The notes under the pieces: generated by a model
The model's input: the letters and a program-made list of their open reading frames with translations, nothing else
Told to the model about the DNA's origin: nothing
Databases searched by the model: none
Shown: positions 5,069-13,125 of the stretch, piece by piece
Position numbering within the stretch: position 1 is the first letter of the stretch
Layout of the letters: each line of letters opens with the position of its first letter
IMG/VR virus record: IMGVR_UViG_3300027896_000250
Location: 1 to 22,086 of that record
Strand: one strand, 5' to 3'
Source of the DNA: a virus
DNA length: 22,086 nucleotides
Translations under genes and position numbers: made by a program

Positions 5069-5323
5069 TTATGCTGCCTCCACTATCGAGTAATAAACCC
5101 ATCTATTCCCCAAGACCCGCCTGTGCCTGATCGTGTAGCCGAGCGGTTTCAGCAGTTCCTCGAGATCTGTTATGCGGCGCCGGTACTCCGGAAGGAACGC
5201 CTTAAGGAAGTCCCGCCCTGATATCTCCCCATGCTCCAGCATCATTTGATAGACCCTCCACGTTTGGGTCCCGTAGCTCGCGGGGTTTTTTGGATATTCA
5301 AACTGGAGGGCGAGCTGGGTCAT
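5069..5323 (-). CDS. Winged-helix-like small phage protein
   Basis: This 84-residue protein overlaps the upstream radical SAM remnant's stop by ATGA. The pattern TQTWRVYQMMLEHGEISGRDFLKAF...EYRRRITDLEELLKPLGYTIRHRR...NRWVYYSIVEA reads as helix, turn, recognition helix and a beta wing, a fold common in small phage regulators and DNA-binding accessory proteins. The segment RRRITDLEELLKPLGYTI would be the recognition helix and first wing strand. No specific family or target is recognised. That it survives intact beside a deleted gene suggests it is under selection. Confidence 0.6.
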   Translation of the reverse strand: MTQLALQFEYPKNPASYGTQTWRVYQMMLEHGEISGRDFLKAFLPEYRRRITDLEELLKPLGYTIRHRRVLGNRWVYYSIVEAA

Positions 5324-5768
5324 ATATCAAAGCATCCCTGTTGTTTATCGTATTTCCAATGCTCAAAATCTTTATAATCAATGTGTTCATACCATCTGAG
5401 TCTTGAGTAATAGTTAACCATGTTACGAAGCTCTCTCTCGGTCCACCCGCCTGCTTCATAAACATAGCCGTTCTTTTCAAGGGCATCCAGCGGTTGAAAG
5501 CGCATGGGGTTAGGCCTGATATCCCATGACCGCACCAATTCAAGCCGATATAGGGCATCTTCCGGCGTGTCGTTGTATCCGATCAGGACATAGACCCCTA
5601 TATCTTTCGTCGTTTCCTGCCGGCAAAGGTCAATGGCATCCTTCACAGATCCTTCATCGTTCACATGATCAAAAGCAAATCTCACCTTACAATGAGGCAA
5701 GAAACCAAGGGCGAAGGCTGCTGCAGGTAGGAGTTTTTGAGATAATCCTTAATCTCTTCGGCGGTCAT
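5320..5768 (-). pseudogene. Remnant of a phage radical SAM gene, iron-sulfur core missing
   Basis: The C-terminal 126 residues (5320-5700) look like the C-terminal half of a phage radical SAM protein: RFAFDHVNDEGSVKDAI, VYVLIGYNDTPEDALYRLE, IRPNPMRFQPLDAL and a conserved helical end. The CxxxCxxC cluster motif and N-terminal barrel strands are absent. Upstream, a proper ATG (5768) overlaps the helicase stop by ATGA but yields only 28 residues (MTAEEIKDYLKNSYLQQPSP...) before a TGA at 5682-5684, in a frame different from the C-terminal part. The simplest reading is an original gene starting at 5768 that lost an internal segment and shifted frame. The C-terminal fragment could still be made from a TTG at 5700, but without the cluster it cannot do radical SAM chemistry. 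Confidence 0.65.
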
Positions 5769-7510
5769 AAAGCCTCCGCTATAAATCTGCTTCGCGGGCT
5801 CTCGAAAAGCCGCCCGTGCTTTTCTTCCTTCTCCGGACGTACTGTTAAGATAAGCTGGTCTTTCGCCCTGGTCATGGCGACGTACATCAATCTTCGCTCT
5901 GCCTCGAGATCTCCATTATTTAATGCTTGCTTACTCGGCAGAATGCCCTCATTGCAGCCGGCGACGATCACAACCGGCCATTCTAGACCTTTTGCGGCGT
6001 GGATTGTCATGAGGGTTATGCCCTCGGCTTCCTCGGCCTTGATTTCATCCTGGATATCGTATGTGGCCAGCCAATCGAGGTAAGAACATAATGCGGGAGT
6101 TTTCATGTCCGCTTCGTTCTCCCACCCATTGATGAATTTAAGAATAGCTGCTATTTCAAATGGCCACTTAAATCCTGCTGAAAGATTCAGGATCATTTCA
6201 TCAAATGTCCATTCATCGGCGGTATCAAAAAAAGCCCAATAATCGGTGTTGTTGTCAACGGCCATCCACGCCTGGAAATGGCTTATCCCATCCTGGGCGG
6301 CCTTGTAGCGGATCTCCGAGTATTGCTCCCGCGTCAGCCCGATAAGCTCCCTTATAAGTAGGAAGGCGAAGTTGTCATAGGGATTAACCAGGAGCTTTAA
6401 GAACGCATGGAATCTCCGGAAGGCTTCGCTATTCGTCAACGCGGCTTCCTTGCCGATGTAGATATGCGGGATTTCTAAGGTTGTGAGTTCAGAAGATAGC
6501 TTCTCAAGCAGGGCGTGGATACGAGACAAAACAACAATTTTTTCTTCATTTAAGAAGTTGAGGTATTGGGCAATTTCATGGCTGTCTGCATTCATCATGG
6601 GTCTTTTTGCCACTAGCTCCATCTCTTCCCTTGCCGCCTTCATCGTCTTCGGTATCCGATCTACATTGTGATTGATCAGCTTATTGGAGGCCTCCACGAT
6701 CTCCGGGACGCTGCGGTAGTTTGTCTCAAGGCGGTAGACCTCGAAGAACATCTGATTATCTACAAGGTACTTCGGCGCTGCCCCCCTCCATTCATAAATC
6801 GATTGGTCAATATCCCCTACTACATACAGCGAGGCCTTAAACAGCTCTTCCATTTGCAGGATAATCTGCCATTGGAGCATGTCAATGTCCTGTACTTCAT
6901 CAACGAGGATATGCTTGACGTGGAGATACTTCGCCATGGATTCAATCAGGAGCTTCATGCCTATGAGCAGACCGCCATAGGTGAGACTGTTATTCTCTTT
7001 GCACCGCTGGATGAAGGCTATGAAAAGACCGCGCCTGGGGTCGTCCTCTTCCGGCTCTTTTCCCTTCTGGTAGTAGTTATCAAATATTGCGTCTATATCT
7101 TTCTTCGGTATCTTCCAGGTCTTGCCTTTCAATATGCCCATATCGGCAGCGACCTCGCGGAGTAGAAAGGATTCTTCCCACTCCCCGTAGACCGTGACGT
7201 TAGTTTTGCGGAGTCCGATGAGATCCCCGAAACGGTGAATCATTCGCAGTGCCAGGGCGTGTATAGTGCCGACGTGGACGTGATAAGCCTGCTTGCCGAT
7301 GCGTTCCTCAAGGCGGGTTTTGAGCTCGCCAGCGGCCTTCCTGGTGAAGCAAAAGGCCATACATTCATACGGACTGACCCGCCTTTTTTCTACCAGGTAA
7401 GCAATCCTCTCTATGAGGGTCTTGGTTTTCCCGCTGCCGGCCCCGGCTAGGACCAGGGCACGGCGGGACGTGGTTTCTACGGCCGCTTTCTGCTGAAGAT
7501 CTAATTCCAT
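5765..7510 (-). CDS. UvrD/PcrA-like superfamily 1A DNA helicase
   Basis: A 581-residue ATP-dependent 3'-5' helicase by family. All superfamily 1 motifs are visible in order: Q motif (DLQQKAAV), Walker A GAGSGKT (23-29), Ia (FCFTRKAAGEL), Ib (VGTIHALALRM), Walker B ILVDEVQD (201-208), III GDIDQSIYEWRGA (232-244), IV LETNYRS (261-267), V GITLMTIHAAKGLEWPVV (about 493-510) and VI RRLMYVAMTRAKDQL (about 540-555). It is shorter than typical UvrD (about 720 residues), mainly by trimmed 2B and C-terminal regions. AGAGGA lies seven bases before the ATG. Its neighbours, a Rad50-like ATPase and a possible annealing protein, place it in a phage recombination/repair or replication-support module. The sequence appears intact. 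Confidence 0.93.
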   Translation of the reverse strand: MELDLQQKAAVETTSRRALVLAGAGSGKTKTLIERIAYLVEKRRVSPYECMAFCFTRKAAGELKTRLEERIGKQAYHVHVGTIHALALRMIHRFGDLIGLRKTNVTVYGEWEESFLLREVAADMGILKGKTWKIPKKDIDAIFDNYYQKGKEPEEDDPRRGLFIAFIQRCKENNSLTYGGLLIGMKLLIESMAKYLHVKHILVDEVQDIDMLQWQIILQMEELFKASLYVVGDIDQSIYEWRGAAPKYLVDNQMFFEVYRLETNYRSVPEIVEASNKLINHNVDRIPKTMKAAREEMELVAKRPMMNADSHEIAQYLNFLNEEKIVVLSRIHALLEKLSSELTTLEIPHIYIGKEAALTNSEAFRRFHAFLKLLVNPYDNFAFLLIRELIGLTREQYSEIRYKAAQDGISHFQAWMAVDNNTDYWAFFDTADEWTFDEMILNLSAGFKWPFEIAAILKFINGWENEADMKTPALCSYLDWLATYDIQDEIKAEEAEGITLMTIHAAKGLEWPVVIVAGCNEGILPSKQALNNGDLEAERRLMYVAMTRAKDQLILTVRPEKEEKHGRLFESPRSRFIAEAL

Positions 7511-7513
7511 ATC

Positions 7514-8239
7514 TCATTCCTCTCGATAACCAATACACAGTGATGGCTGGAACGGATTATCTATCTTTGCCTGCTTTTTCATGTTGTCGATGCCCCAGAG
7601 TGGTTGTAGATTTTTCAACGCCCAACATCTTTTGAAGTCGATATCCTCCGGCTTCTCGAAATTAAAGGCAGCGATAGGGATTTTATGATCTATATGCCAT
7701 TCACCCATGTTGTCCCAGGACATGCCGGGAAGAAATTGCTTTTCAAGGTGACGCTTGAGCTGATCTATGGTGTATCCGACGAGAGCTTCCCAGTGGCGGC
7801 CGGCCTTGCCTTCCTTATTCCTGCGGCTAAGCGAAAACCTTATGAGGCGGGCTACGGTAAGGTTAAGGTGCCCTCTGGGGGTGCTTTTTAACTTCTCTCG
7901 CTCTTTCCGATGACCCCCTCTTCTTTTTTCTGGATTTTTTGCTGCCCAGTTCTTTTTATATGCCTTCCCCTCTTCTGACTCCCGCCATTTTTTTGTTGCT
8001 TCCAAATTTAACGTACGATACTTCTTGTTAGATGCCCTTATTTTATCGGGGTGCCGTTTTCGATAGGTTCTGCTTATCTTCCTCGTTATTTCCGGATGCA
8101 TTGCCCTGTATTTATCGTTGCGTATTTTCACACATAGCTTACAAACGGAATCAAGGCCATATTTGCCATTCTTGGCTTTATAAAATTCGCCCTCGTTTCC
8201 GCATTTTGTGCATATTTTTTTTGTCAAAAGAAACACCAT
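7514..8239 (-). CDS. HNH endonuclease with N-terminal zinc finger (homing-type)
   Basis: A 241-residue protein started at ATG 8239; in-frame TTG codons upstream (8257) and just downstream are possible, and no start has a good ribosome binding site. A zinc-finger-like module leads (C10xxC13...C33xxC36), followed by a long Lys/Arg-rich helical spacer (about 40-120) of the kind seen in free-standing phage HNH endonucleases. The C-terminal HNH domain has WHIDHKIPIAAF, CWALKNLQPLWG and NMKKQAK. Such enzymes nick or cut DNA and are often selfish elements between core phage genes, which fits its place between the Rad50-like and helicase genes. A functional nuclease in recombination cannot be excluded. 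Confidence 0.82.
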   Translation of the reverse strand: MVFLLTKKICTKCGNEGEFYKAKNGKYGLDSVCKLCVKIRNDKYRAMHPEITRKISRTYRKRHPDKIRASNKKYRTLNLEATKKWRESEEGKAYKKNWAAKNPEKRRGGHRKEREKLKSTPRGHLNLTVARLIRFSLSRRNKEGKAGRHWEALVGYTIDQLKRHLEKQFLPGMSWDNMGEWHIDHKIPIAAFNFEKPEDIDFKRCWALKNLQPLWGIDNMKKQAKIDNPFQPSLCIGYREE

Positions 8240-8243
8240 TGCG

Positions 8244-8789
8244 CTACAACTCAACAATATTCCAATCTTTAGGTAAGGTTTCAGGGCGATGACAGCTCAT
8301 ACCTAATACCTGAACACTTCCATCAAATAGCTCTAAAGTTTTAGTTAAATTCTTGGCATCCAGTTCAGCAAATTCAGCGATGAGTACGCTTGCCCCCAAG
8401 GCCAGCGTCAATGCTGTGTCAAACGACACCCTCTCACCACCAGAAAGCCCAGCATAAGACACGTTCGCCTTCCCGTTATGCCAGCCTATGAAAACATCGC
8501 CGTCATGGGATTCGAGTACCGCTTTTCCCGCTGGAAGAACCGCATTCATCCTATCCATGATCAATTTCAGGGACTCGGCCACGGTGGCATTCTTCTTAGC
8601 CATGAGCCGCTCAAAGACGTCCTTGAGCTTCTTTGCTTCTTCTCTATTGCCCTCCGCTTCCTTCTGAAACTTGGCAACTTGTTCATCGAGCCCCTTGGCC
8701 TTGTCAAATAGTGATTTATCTTTTCTCAGGCCTACGAGCTTTGCCTTGAGGCCGGTAATCTGATCGTTTAGTATTTTTATGTCGGACAT
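8244..8789 (-). CDS. C-terminal half of a split Rad50/SbcC-like ATPase
   Basis: A 181-residue protein started at the ATG giving MSDIKILNDQ, with GGAGGG about seven bases upstream and the stop of the N-terminal half gene two bases before the ATG. Residues 1-75 form a coiled coil (heptad-like, KLVGLRKDKSLFDKAKGLDEQ...). Then comes the C-terminal ATPase lobe: signature motif LSGGER (115-120), a Walker B-like LIAEFAELD (136-144) and an H-loop-like SCHRPE (H167). The usual Walker B Asp is Ala here (AE instead of DE). It supplies the signature and D-loop surfaces missing from the adjacent gene product, so the two should assemble into one ATPase head. Confidence 0.78.
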   Translation of the reverse strand: MSDIKILNDQITGLKAKLVGLRKDKSLFDKAKGLDEQVAKFQKEAEGNREEAKKLKDVFERLMAKKNATVAESLKLIMDRMNAVLPAGKAVLESHDGDVFIGWHNGKANVSYAGLSGGERVSFDTALTLALGASVLIAEFAELDAKNLTKTLELFDGSVQVLGMSCHRPETLPKDWNIVEL

Positions 8790-8790
8790 G

Positions 8791-9855
8791 TCAGCCCTCC
8801 TTCCTGTACTTCTTGAACTCGCGTAAAACAACAAGGCGAGCCATGCAAGAGCCGCAATCGGCTTCGTTAAAGGCCTCTAAAACGAATTTGAAGGAGCCGA
8901 GAACGGCATCGCGCTCCACAAAATTCTCAAGTTCTCGCACTGTCATAGTGCCTTTTGCTCGTTCTTCGCCTTTTTCGGCTACTGACGTTTGCCCAGGTTC
9001 AACTGGAGCGACGGGCTGCAAGGGAAGCTCCGGGGCTTTTTCGAGCTGTTTCGCCTTTTCTTCATGCGCCTTTATTGTTTCCGCCTGCTTTTTTGCCGCA
9101 TCGTCAGTTTTCTTTTTCGCTTCCGCTGCAGCGGCCTTTGCTTTCTCTTCCGCCTTGGCCGTAGCCTCCGTTGCGGCTGCTGCTGCTGCCTGTTCTTGAT
9201 TGGCCTTGTTCAAGTTCTCCTGGGCGAGCTCGAGCTGCGCCTCCGCGTGAATAATTGCGCCGGCACAATCGGCGAGCGTTCCGGGCGGGAGATTAAGGGC
9301 GGCCTTCGATACTAAGAGCTCCGCTGCTGCCGCTTCTTTCGCCCTGGCCTTGTCTTCAAAGTCAAGGATCTTCGCCCTGCCCTTCGTCGCAGCATCGATG
9401 ATGCCGGTCAGGTCTTCCTTGGGAGGGTAGAGCTCTAAAAGCATATCAATTTTTTTCTGATCGGAAAGCTCCATGAACGCGCCGACATCAACGGCCTTGA
9501 TGCCGCCGGATTTGCCGAGTGTTTCATAGTAGAATTCCTTTGCAGACTTGGCCTTGTTGACCTTGTAGCCCTGCTTGACAGAATCGCCCTGCTTGACAAA
9601 GCCCCGCTCAAATTCGTAGCCGCCGTCCGTCTTGAAGCCGACGACCATCTTTTCCTTTGAGGAAGAGAAGGCCGCGAAGATCTCGGGATTAGTTTTTTTG
9701 GCGGACCCGGGAATATATCCCATGAGCGCCAGCAGCAGGGCGTCTCTTCTTACCGACTTGCCGGCGCCGTTAGGACCGAGTATTAATGTGAGGCGGCCTA
9801 ACGGCTGTTCGAAAGTCAGTCCCTTTATATTTTCACCTTTGACTGACGTAATCAT
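8791..9855 (-). CDS. N-terminal half of a split Rad50/SbcC-like ATPase
   Basis: A 354-residue protein started at the ATG giving MITSVKGENIKGL, with GGAGGG about eight bases upstream. The N-terminal ATPase lobe has Walker A GPNGAGKS (27-34) and the strand/loop pattern of SMC-like ATPases (LRLTLILGPNG-type beta-loop-helix). From about residue 170 to 290 there is a long Ala/Lys/Glu-rich coiled coil, then a Pro-rich break (PELPLQPVAPVEPG). Near the C-terminus, CGSC (C334 and C337) resembles a zinc-hook CxxC. The protein stops shortly after this motif; Walker B and the signature motif are in the next gene. Both halves have good ribosome binding sites, which favours a true two-gene arrangement over a sequencing frameshift. 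Confidence 0.8.
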   Translation of the reverse strand: MITSVKGENIKGLTFEQPLGRLTLILGPNGAGKSVRRDALLLALMGYIPGSAKKTNPEIFAAFSSSKEKMVVGFKTDGGYEFERGFVKQGDSVKQGYKVNKAKSAKEFYYETLGKSGGIKAVDVGAFMELSDQKKIDMLLELYPPKEDLTGIIDAATKGRAKILDFEDKARAKEAAAAELLVSKAALNLPPGTLADCAGAIIHAEAQLELAQENLNKANQEQAAAAAATEATAKAEEKAKAAAAEAKKKTDDAAKKQAETIKAHEEKAKQLEKAPELPLQPVAPVEPGQTSVAEKGEERAKGTMTVRELENFVERDAVLGSFKFVLEAFNEADCGSCMARLVVLREFKKYRKEG

Positions 9856-9859
9856 AGGC

Positions 9860-11056
9860 CTATCCCTCCATCTGCACCGTGATGTGCTCCATGATCTTCT
9901 TAGCAGTATCAACTTCATACTGGTCTGCTTCGAGCGATTTCAGCTCGAGAGCAAAACAGGCCTTTGCAAATTCTTCCGGCATGCTCTTGATTACTGCACG
10001 AAGCTGGTTGATGATCTTTTGTTCTTCCTTCGGTCTGGCTTTCTTTTTCCCTGCAGCCTCGGGAGCCTTCTTTTCTTCTGTCTCATCAACCTCGCTGGCC
10101 TGGGCGGCTGCAAGGTCTTCCTCGTCCAGCGTGTCCACTCCGGACGTAAGCTCAATCTGCTTAAATTCCGATCTGTCACCGGAAACCATGGCGCTGATTT
10201 TTGTCTGGAGGTTCTTGTAGGTCGTCGGGTCCCACTTGATGATGCTGCCGCCAACAGGCCTCCACGCAATAACAGGTATATCCCACACACCCGTTGAGTC
10301 TGGGGCCTTCTGGAGCCCACTCAGGTGCTTCAAGGCATTCCGGGCGGCGTGTGTTTGGGCAAGCTGGAGGGAATTCTTTATCATCTGACTGATATCAGAA
10401 TACCAATCAAGAGCCTCGGTGTGGCTGGCATTCACCCACAGGGAGCTTGATTTGTCGAATTCATACTCAATCCATGAAGCGTTGTCTTCCGGAGGCTCTG
10501 TGCCTTTGGCGAGGATTCTGAATGCCTGTTGATACTTCTTTGCTTTTGCCAGGAATTCAATGTTTCTTCGGTTGTTAATGTCAAAGATAACCGTCCGGTC
10601 TGATACGATCGGGAGCCCCATGGACGACAGACGGAACGCGGCTGCCCTAATTGCCCAACCCGTCCACTCACCTTTTTCATCAGTAAGCGACGCCGGGTTT
10701 GCCATTGGCTTTCCGTAGACCATGACCTCGACGGGGAATATGACGCTGGCTGCCGCTTTCTCCGCCCACATTTGATAACCCTGTGCGGAAACAATATTGA
10801 CGCCGCCGCCTACGGGGAGCTTCACGAGCCCGCCGTTCATCAGAGATAGGCGGCAAATCTGCTTGAATGCGCGGATCTCGCCGTCCTTGTCTCGAAGTGC
10901 AAACACCTCGTCTGTCCCCAGGGCGAGGATATTGTTTTGAACGACCGCCAGCAGGAGCTTTGCTTCCGCTGGGAAGTCCTTCTCGATTTTCTTTACTGCG
11001 TCTGCCGGCGTTAACTGAACCCCCGGAAGGGTTTTCGCTGTTGATTCTTTTGCCAT
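9860..11056 (-). CDS. Putative phage recombination protein (possibly RecT-like annealing)
   Basis: A 398-residue protein with a strong ribosome binding site (AAGGAGG, about eight bases before ATG). The core (about 30-270) is mixed alpha/beta and includes NGGLVKLPVGGGVNIVSAQGYQ, a region around GEWTGWAIRAAAF and a helical QMIKNSLQLAQTHAARNALK that recalls the Arg-rich helix near the end of phage single-strand annealing cores. A low-complexity linker follows (about 305-335: acidic, then Lys/Ala/Pro-rich), then a C-terminal helical domain. The gene immediately precedes the Rad50-like pair. I do not see an unambiguous RecT signature; the annealing role is inferred from context and general layout. 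It could equally be another single-strand DNA-binding or replication accessory protein. Confidence 0.45.
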   Translation of the reverse strand: MAKESTAKTLPGVQLTPADAVKKIEKDFPAEAKLLLAVVQNNILALGTDEVFALRDKDGEIRAFKQICRLSLMNGGLVKLPVGGGVNIVSAQGYQMWAEKAAASVIFPVEVMVYGKPMANPASLTDEKGEWTGWAIRAAAFRLSSMGLPIVSDRTVIFDINNRRNIEFLAKAKKYQQAFRILAKGTEPPEDNASWIEYEFDKSSSLWVNASHTEALDWYSDISQMIKNSLQLAQTHAARNALKHLSGLQKAPDSTGVWDIPVIAWRPVGGSIIKWDPTTYKNLQTKISAMVSGDRSEFKQIELTSGVDTLDEEDLAAAQASEVDETEEKKAPEAAGKKKARPKEEQKIINQLRAVIKSMPEEFAKACFALELKSLEADQYEVDTAKKIMEHITVQMEG

Positions 11057-12409: not shown

Positions 12410-12565
12410 CTACCTCCCGCCGAAGCAAATGATTAAATAAAAGGCGATACCCACGCCCGCGACAAACAGCCAATAGGCGAGCTTCCTGGTCCACGGATGC
12501 AAATTTTCTTCTTTCATGTCTTCTAGGGGAATGTACCAGCCGCCTACTTTTAACCAGTGCTTCAC
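12410..12565 (-). CDS. Short single-helix membrane protein (GTG start)
   Basis: A 51-residue protein. The GTG start overlaps the upstream stop as GTGA, with GGGAGG four to five bases before it. A charged N-terminal half (KHWLKVGGWYIPLEDMKEENLH) is followed by one membrane helix (residues 31-47, starts YWLFVAGVGIAFYLI) and a tiny tail. An internal ATG at residue 17 would give a 35-residue form but has no ribosome binding site. It sits among other small early membrane proteins. Roles in superinfection exclusion or host-membrane changes are possible, but nothing here proves them. Confidence 0.55.
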   Translation of the reverse strand: MKHWLKVGGWYIPLEDMKEENLHPWTRKLAYWLFVAGVGIAFYLIICFGGR

Positions 12566-13125
12566 TTTCCCTCCCCAACCTTTAACAACTCAATCCCGTA
12601 TCTTGGTATCTTCTCTTGCATGGCTGCCCATGCTGCCTCTGCTGCTGCCCCTGCTGCCCCTGCTGCCCCTGCTGCTGCCTCTGCTGCTGCCCATGCTGCT
12701 GCCCCTGCTGCCCATGCTGCTGCCCCTGCTGCCCCTGCTGCCCCTGCTGCCCCTGCTGCCCCTGCTGCTGCCCATGCTGCCTCTGCTGCTGCCTTTGCTG
12801 CCCATGCCGCCTCTTTATTTTTTACAGAGGGATTTTTGATGCAGGCTTTGGCAGCATCTATCGCCTGTCGTGGGCGTTTATCACCGGGATACTTTTTCTC
12901 GTATATATCAATCACCTGTTCAGCGGCATACACGGCATAAGAAACATACTGCTTATAGGTCATGTGTCTTACTATAAGCCAGTTGCCCCATGCGTGTTTT
13001 TTAATTTTAATGCAGCGTTCAAGGACTTTAATCAGGTCAGGTTCGCAGCCTTCTTTCTCCCATTGTTCTACGGCTTCTTTACAGGCGTTGTTCTTAATCA
13101 ACCATTCCTTAGTCAGTTTTTTCAT
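12562..13125 (-). CDS. Ala-rich repeat protein with Imm5-like N-terminal region
   Basis: A 187-residue protein overlapping the upstream stop as ATGA. Residues 45-100 (WLIVRHMTYKQYVSYAVYAAEQVIDIYEKKYPGDKRPRQAIDAAKA, read in parts) resemble the 'putative immunity protein' (Imm5-like) helical family found in phages and toxin loci, where the signature is a Y-P-x-D-x-R-P-R-x-A-I/L-x-A-A segment followed by Ala-rich repeats. Residues 106-168 are almost pure Ala/Gly with periodic Trp and Glu. The underlying DNA is a short-period GCAGCA/GGGGCA repeat, so copy number may vary. The last 18 residues return to ordinary sequence. True function in phages is unknown. Confidence 0.6.
   Translation of the reverse strand: MKKLTKEWLIKNNACKEAVEQWEKEGCEPDLIKVLERCIKIKKHAWGNWLIVRHMTYKQYVSYAVYAAEQVIDIYEKKYPGDKRPRQAIDAAKACIKNPSVKNKEAAWAAKAAAEAAWAAAGAAGAAGAAGAAGAAAWAAGAAAWAAAEAAAGAAGAAGAAAEAAWAAMQEKIPRYGIELLKVGEGK
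12623..12812. repeat. Short-period tandem repeat encoding poly-Ala/Gly
   Basis: About 190 bases built from CTGCTGCCC and CTGCCCCTG-type triplet units (plus strand), with occasional CATG or CTCTG interruptions. It encodes the Ala/Gly tract of the minus-strand gene at 12562-13125. All units keep the reading frame, so gain or loss of copies changes length without frameshift. Both strands remain open in several frames purely because of the repeat. Confidence 0.9.

Follow-up and report, generated by a model that had tools for sequence, protein, structure and literature searches.

The virus record IMGVR_UViG_3300027896_000250 raises the question of whether a Rad50/SbcC-like ATPase found there in two pieces is a broken copy of an ordinary gene or an enzyme naturally built from two subunits. 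In models of SMC and Rad50 proteins, the two head lobes are tied to each other via one coiled-coil arm, and ATP-driven head movement is passed along this arm to the hook or hinge. The stretch that we analysed (22,086 bases of the record, hereafter the window) contains the following features:

9860..11056, minus strand: upstream partner, phrog_32428; 398 aa, predicted core weakly RAD52/RecT-like
8791..9855, minus strand: N-half of the Rad50/SbcC-like ATPase; 354 aa, with Walker A lobe, coiled-coil helix, Pro-rich linker and C-terminal CxxC hairpin
9754..9777, minus strand: Walker A GPNGAGKS; N-half residues 27-34
8845..8856, minus strand: CGSC, hook-like CxxC; N-half residues 334-337, 17 residues ahead of the chain end
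8795..8802, minus strand: Shine-Dalgarno-like AAGGAGGG for the C-half, within the end of the N-half gene; read directly
8244..8789, minus strand: C-half of the ATPase; 181 aa, with coiled-coil helix, signature, Walker B / D-loop and H-loop lobe
8433..8447, minus strand: LSGGE signature (LSGGER in the sequence); C-half residues 115-119
8358..8387, minus strand: Walker B / D-loop VLIAEFAELD; C-half residues 135-144
7514..8257, minus strand: endonuclease-VII-like/HNH gene between C-half and helicase; likely start ATG 8239
5765..7510, minus strand: UvrD-like helicase, the module's conserved last member

The two ends of a Rad50/SbcC-like ATPase are encoded by adjacent genes

On the minus strand, the order of transcription is 398-aa gene, N-half, C-half, endonuclease-VII-like gene and UvrD-like helicase. 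Reading the ORFs bore out the motifs listed by a first-pass annotation of this DNA: both ORFs lie on the minus strand, the N-half has GPNGAGKS and CGSC, and the C-half has LSGGER, VLIAEFAELD and, at the H-loop position, CH. The genes are separate, as had been claimed, and the C-half start is preceded by a strong ribosome-binding site of its own, AAGGAGGG (8802-8795), 5 nt upstream of the ATG; the gap between the N-half stop (TGA, 8793-8791) and the C-half ATG (8789) is 1 base, not two. In family searches, the N-half matched phrog_77 (SbcC-like subunit) at 321-456 and the C-half matched it at 733-878, so that the halves represent the two ends of one family. The N-half also matched Pfam AAA_23 (2.3e-08). 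These family matches, together with the relatives described below, agreed with the proposal of a two-chain ATPase of the Rad50/SbcC/SMC type, cut beside a CxxC at a chain end.

The split is conserved among divergent relatives

The first-pass annotation had named two outcomes that would make the split an artefact, a base error near 8790 joining both frames and homologues that are always single chains, and had called for a search for homologues. In the first relative (L002, ~30-39% identity), both halves were again present, separated by a 67-aa ORF. A profile scan with the upstream protein gave 39 loci, a set whose selection was independent of the ATPase being split, as it was found via the neighbouring annealing-like protein. 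The halves were separate ORFs wherever both lay inside the contig, which agrees with the earlier proposal that the head has to be assembled from two polypeptides. Six loci came from assemblies labelled Deltaproteobacteria, Desulfobacteraceae, Syntrophaceae or Solidesulfovibrio alcoholivorans DSM 5433, and later scans added more split members, the diverged L091-L096 among them. Altogether, about 40 divergent relatives from phage contigs and Desulfobacterota-type prophages were all in two genes, at identities down to ~21-25% (pairwise minimum 21% for the N-half and 23% for the C-half). The junction was not conserved: spacing between the halves ranged from -23 (an overlap) to +1153 nt, and an intact gene lay between them in L012 (234 aa) and L047 (211 aa).

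Both halves are under purifying selection, with dN/dS values of 0.17-0.33 for the N-half and 0.13-0.39 for the C-half in the pairs tested. Since these values are far below 1 and divergent relatives are split as well, two functional genes have been maintained, and we conclude from these comparisons that the split is old and not a sequencing error. It is thus highly improbable that the window holds an ordinary single-chain SbcC gene that was broken by a one-off frameshift or assembly error or is decaying as a pseudogene. Single-chain relatives do exist (L103, L108 and L100-L109), and just one in-frame stop separates the halves in L015, L046 and L028, as such an error would predict; about 40 relatives are split, in differing frames and some with genes between the halves, which excludes a base error near 8790, and neither the low dN/dS of both halves nor the C-half's strong ribosome-binding site fits a decaying gene. 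This copy is not the only one broken, and the split relatives ruled out a frameshift or sequencing error.

Programmed frameshifting or stop read-through was also considered and rejected, as junction frames and stop codons vary between relatives. No match came up among 50,697 annotated phage genomes when the window halves, or the halves and upstream protein of L011, were used as single-protein queries, and the C-half likewise detected nothing when run as a single protein against viral contigs; profiles were needed to recover the relatives. C-half matches were present in 8 of 348 genomes of the class of Solidesulfovibrio, three of them weak.

The halves are predicted to form one composite head

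We ran AlphaFold2, with 56 aligned rows, on a computational fusion of the halves in which the junction TGAC was read as one residue, purely as an aid to folding. The model of this single fused chain (mean pLDDT 86.4, pTM 0.66) showed one SMC/Rad50-type head, and its weakest region was the Pro-rich linker at residues 249-305. As modelled, the N-half and C-half fold together into one composite ABC-type head via the lobes and two short helices. These helices, of ~70 and ~83 residues, do not amount to the "long coiled coil" that had been described.

Residues 1-536 of the model aligned best to SMC heads (5xei, Z 18.1; 4i99_A, Z 17.9, rmsd 4.1 over 253), followed by the RecN head 4aby_A (Z 16.9) and Rad50 4ncj_A (Z 16.4, rmsd 4.6 over 254). 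While SMC heads (SMC, Smc2/4, Smc1/3) are the top structural matches by Z, the phage ATPase differs from them in having no hinge domain, two chains, a short coil and a recombination neighbourhood. With Rad50/SbcC (phage T4 gp46, E. coli SbcC; phrog_77) it shares Walker A, signature, D-loop and H-loop around a coiled coil, a CxxC and, in the model, the head fold; unlike Rad50/SbcC, it consists of two chains, its coil is only ~70-80 residues, and its CxxC lies near a chain end after a disordered linker. The closest precedent for a two-polypeptide head is the engineered Rad50 catalytic domain (PDB 1f2t/1f2u, 1ii8, 1us8, 3qkr), and the C-half profile matched Rad50 C-terminal fragments solved as separate chains (3qkr_B, 1.6e-06; 1ii8_B, 2.7e-06; 1f2t_B, 8.8e-04). 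That split was made in the laboratory with coil and hook removed, whereas the phages carry a natural split that retains a hook-like end. Neither half had a Pfam match to the C-terminal Toprim nuclease domain of OLD / Gabija GajA; the ATPase lobes and coil take up both.

The Walker B catalytic pair is missing throughout the family

A further difference from Rad50/SbcC is the loss of the Asp-Glu pair of Walker B, which was found in none of 43 C-halves of split relatives. All 43 instead carry E-x-[AGS]-E-x-[DG] after a hydrophobic strand, in which both Glu residues (Glu139 and Glu142 here) are invariant; EAAE(L/V)D is common to L103 and L108, the two nearest single-chain relatives. The Walker A, signature, D-loop and H-loop motifs are otherwise as in Rad50/SbcC, with the H-loop His substituted in a few relatives.

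The motif can be read in two registers. The first Glu may be the catalytic residue, with the Asp lost, as the first-pass annotation had it. We lean modestly towards the other register, in which the first Glu would replace the Asp and the catalytic Glu would be lost. In profile alignments, the invariant Glu falls on the Asp with Rad50 and on the catalytic Glu with one SMC head. In the model, the strand terminates at Glu139, and L108 and L109 align gap-free from the signature with the Glu on the Asp position. Ala in place of the Asp is one of two registers, and what it describes is a family-wide trait rather than a defect of this copy. As both registers leave the whole family without the usual dyad, the motif suggests slow or altered ATP hydrolysis by the split ATPase.

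The ATPase belongs to a conserved recombination module

The halves are part of a conserved module consisting of a probable single-strand annealing protein, the N-half, the C-half and then the UvrD helicase, which lies 3' of the C-half in almost every relative. The upstream protein matched only phrog_32428, a family of unknown function, in 29 of 29 members; these members had no relevant Pfam match, and PF03837 (RecT) gave none at E <= 1. RecT-, RAD52- and ERF-named viral proteins were among its weak matches, and its model (pLDDT 78.6) gave weak fold matches to RAD52 (Z 5.7 over 111) and RecT (Z 4.0 over 116), consistent with its probable assignment as a single-strand annealing protein.

No Mre11/SbcD-type metallophosphoesterase (PF00149) was found in 25 phage records, some of them fragments, which further separates the system from Rad50/SbcC; all 14 control genomes were positive. 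The same 25 records, fragments included, had no PDDEXK_1 (PF12705) or YqaJ (PF09588) nuclease. In jumbo phages, the occurrence of SbcC together with SbcD is almost universal (PMC7824862).

With no nuclease of its own and a predicted slow turnover that would suit a static clamp, the complex might coat or clamp phage DNA ends against host exonucleases, as an anti-defence or end-protection device with no role in recombination. UvrD and ABC-ATPase pairs do occur in phage-host conflict systems, e.g. Gabija. An OLD-UvrD pairing is described in PMC7049728. We regard end protection as quite improbable, given that the constant pairing with an annealing-like protein and the NinB-like neighbours seen by inspection in some relatives both point to recombination.

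The endonuclease-VII-like/HNH gene at 7514..8257 is not conserved, and relatives carry GIY-YIG-like or other genes there; in the window it is probably a mobile insertion. Differing endonuclease-like genes (HNH/endonuclease VII-like or GIY-YIG-like, assigned partly by inspection) were seen at several positions of the module (window 7514-8257, L002 8501-8860, L012 10726-11346, L024 9246-9797), a scatter that looks as if the module were a repeated target of mobile endonucleases. The UvrD gene of L008 (4463-7120, 885 aa) reads through an intein-like insertion in the conserved GDxDQ-SIY region, which starts CQPEGTMV and ends HTYVADGLCTCN ahead of SIYSFRG.

Other observations concern the surrounding DNA. 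Of a phage radical SAM family, the fragment at window 5320-5700 covers just the C-terminal third (193-298 of 305); a 292-aa ORF just ahead of UvrD in L009 (1272-2150) looks like the full-length version, and the window copy may be truncated. L002 contains a diversity-generating-retroelement-like region (49-651 and 1066-2388), in which a reverse transcriptase ORF follows an Asn-rich template-like repeat and an ORF ends in a matching variable-repeat-like sequence (GGTWNSGSKAGVWIS...). At window 12562-13125, a protein with a long low-complexity stretch of Ala and Gly (GAAGAAGAA...), which other frames also read as repeats, matches phrog_38757 (1e-33), of unknown function, and has weak Imm5-like matches.

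Single-chain relatives suggest one origin of the split

The distant relatives are single-chain ATPases (phrog_32642) of 567 aa (L103), 718 aa (L108) and 713-731 aa (L100-L102, L105, L106 and L109). They resemble the split ATPase in lying beside the same kind of annealing-like upstream protein, the match to which was not seen in L105, and nearly all have a UvrD gene nearby. In a head-lobe tree of 49 rows, one change explained the split with moderate support (92/73, 91% of bootstraps), and L103 was the sister of the split clade (100/99). As the root of this tree was not inferred, one split rather than several fusions is the simplest reading and no proof; on that reading, the split would have happened a single time, in a short single-chain ATPase to which the annealing protein and UvrD were already linked. 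In the single chains L101, L102, L105, L106, L107 and L109, Walker B has Asp-Asn in place of Asp-Glu, which L100 retains. In this gene neighbourhood, it is a second deviation from the catalytic pair and looks independent of the first.

The single chains also bear on the CxxC. A C(x2-3)C motif was present near the C-terminus in 40 of 41 complete N-halves (the exception being L008), but was absent from L103 and L108 and from most other single chains; it may therefore have been gained together with the split. The model places the motif in a predicted helix-turn-helix behind the disordered Pro-rich linker, between helices 306-331 and 338-350, next to where the N-half chain stops and the C-half helix begins. 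The CxxC does sit at a chain end, as had been reported, but its likeness to a zinc hook amid a coiled coil is one of resemblance only, with a disordered linker before it and no counterpart in the two nearest single-chain relatives. By analogy with the Rad50 hook, we infer that it may bind zinc or dimerise.

The position of the motif also helps in weighing a RecF/RecO-like mediator, in which the ATPase would be the phage counterpart of RecF (an ABC head clamping DNA junctions), the upstream protein its annealing or loading partner, and the CxxC a local structural or partner-binding element with no hook tethering. The short coil, the annealing-like neighbour and the failure to find a nuclease would all fit, as would the RecN match (4aby_A) and SMC heads scoring as well as or better than Rad50. 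A CxxC near the chain end in nearly every N-half is what a metal-mediated dimer would be expected to show, and the C-half profile matches Rad50 fragments; we therefore consider such a mediator unlikely, if less so than end protection.

A probable two-subunit clamp in phage recombination

We think it likely that, within a phage module for homologous recombination, the halves form a conserved SMC/Rad50-like ATPase that is obligately made of two subunits, clamps DNA, turns over ATP slowly or in an altered way and has no nuclease of its own. The N-half and C-half would assemble into one ABC-type head, as modelled from the fused chain, and ATP would close heads onto each other. CxxC helical hairpins at the N-half end would probably join two heterodimers via a shared metal ion, as in the Rad50 hook. 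The complex probably clamps DNA in an ATP-dependent manner and probably hands DNA opened by UvrD to the neighbouring annealing protein; in place of its own nuclease, a host nuclease, e.g. host SbcD, may serve. More tentatively, and with less confidence than in the clamp itself, the complex could be a nuclease-free, ATP-gated loader or tether for the annealing protein: a two-subunit clamp without the canonical hydrolysis dyad, with a metal hook at the chain end and noncovalently joined lobes, which would make it a distinct class of recombination mediator.

Rad50-type ATPases and laboratory-split heads were already known, as were Mre11-Rad50 fusions (PMC3175470). No natural, conserved split of Rad50/SbcC was found in the literature that we searched. 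The split seen here lies in a recombination module of uncultured phages that did not turn up in the annotated phage collection searched, and the small two-chain proteins (354 + 181 aa) are suited to biochemistry. With a cut at the hook end that is natural and has long been maintained, the assumption that the arm must connect the lobes becomes testable: the connection may be dispensable, or it may be replaced by the CxxC joint and head packing. If the mediator reading is true, noncovalent assembly would stand in for chain connectivity between the head lobes.
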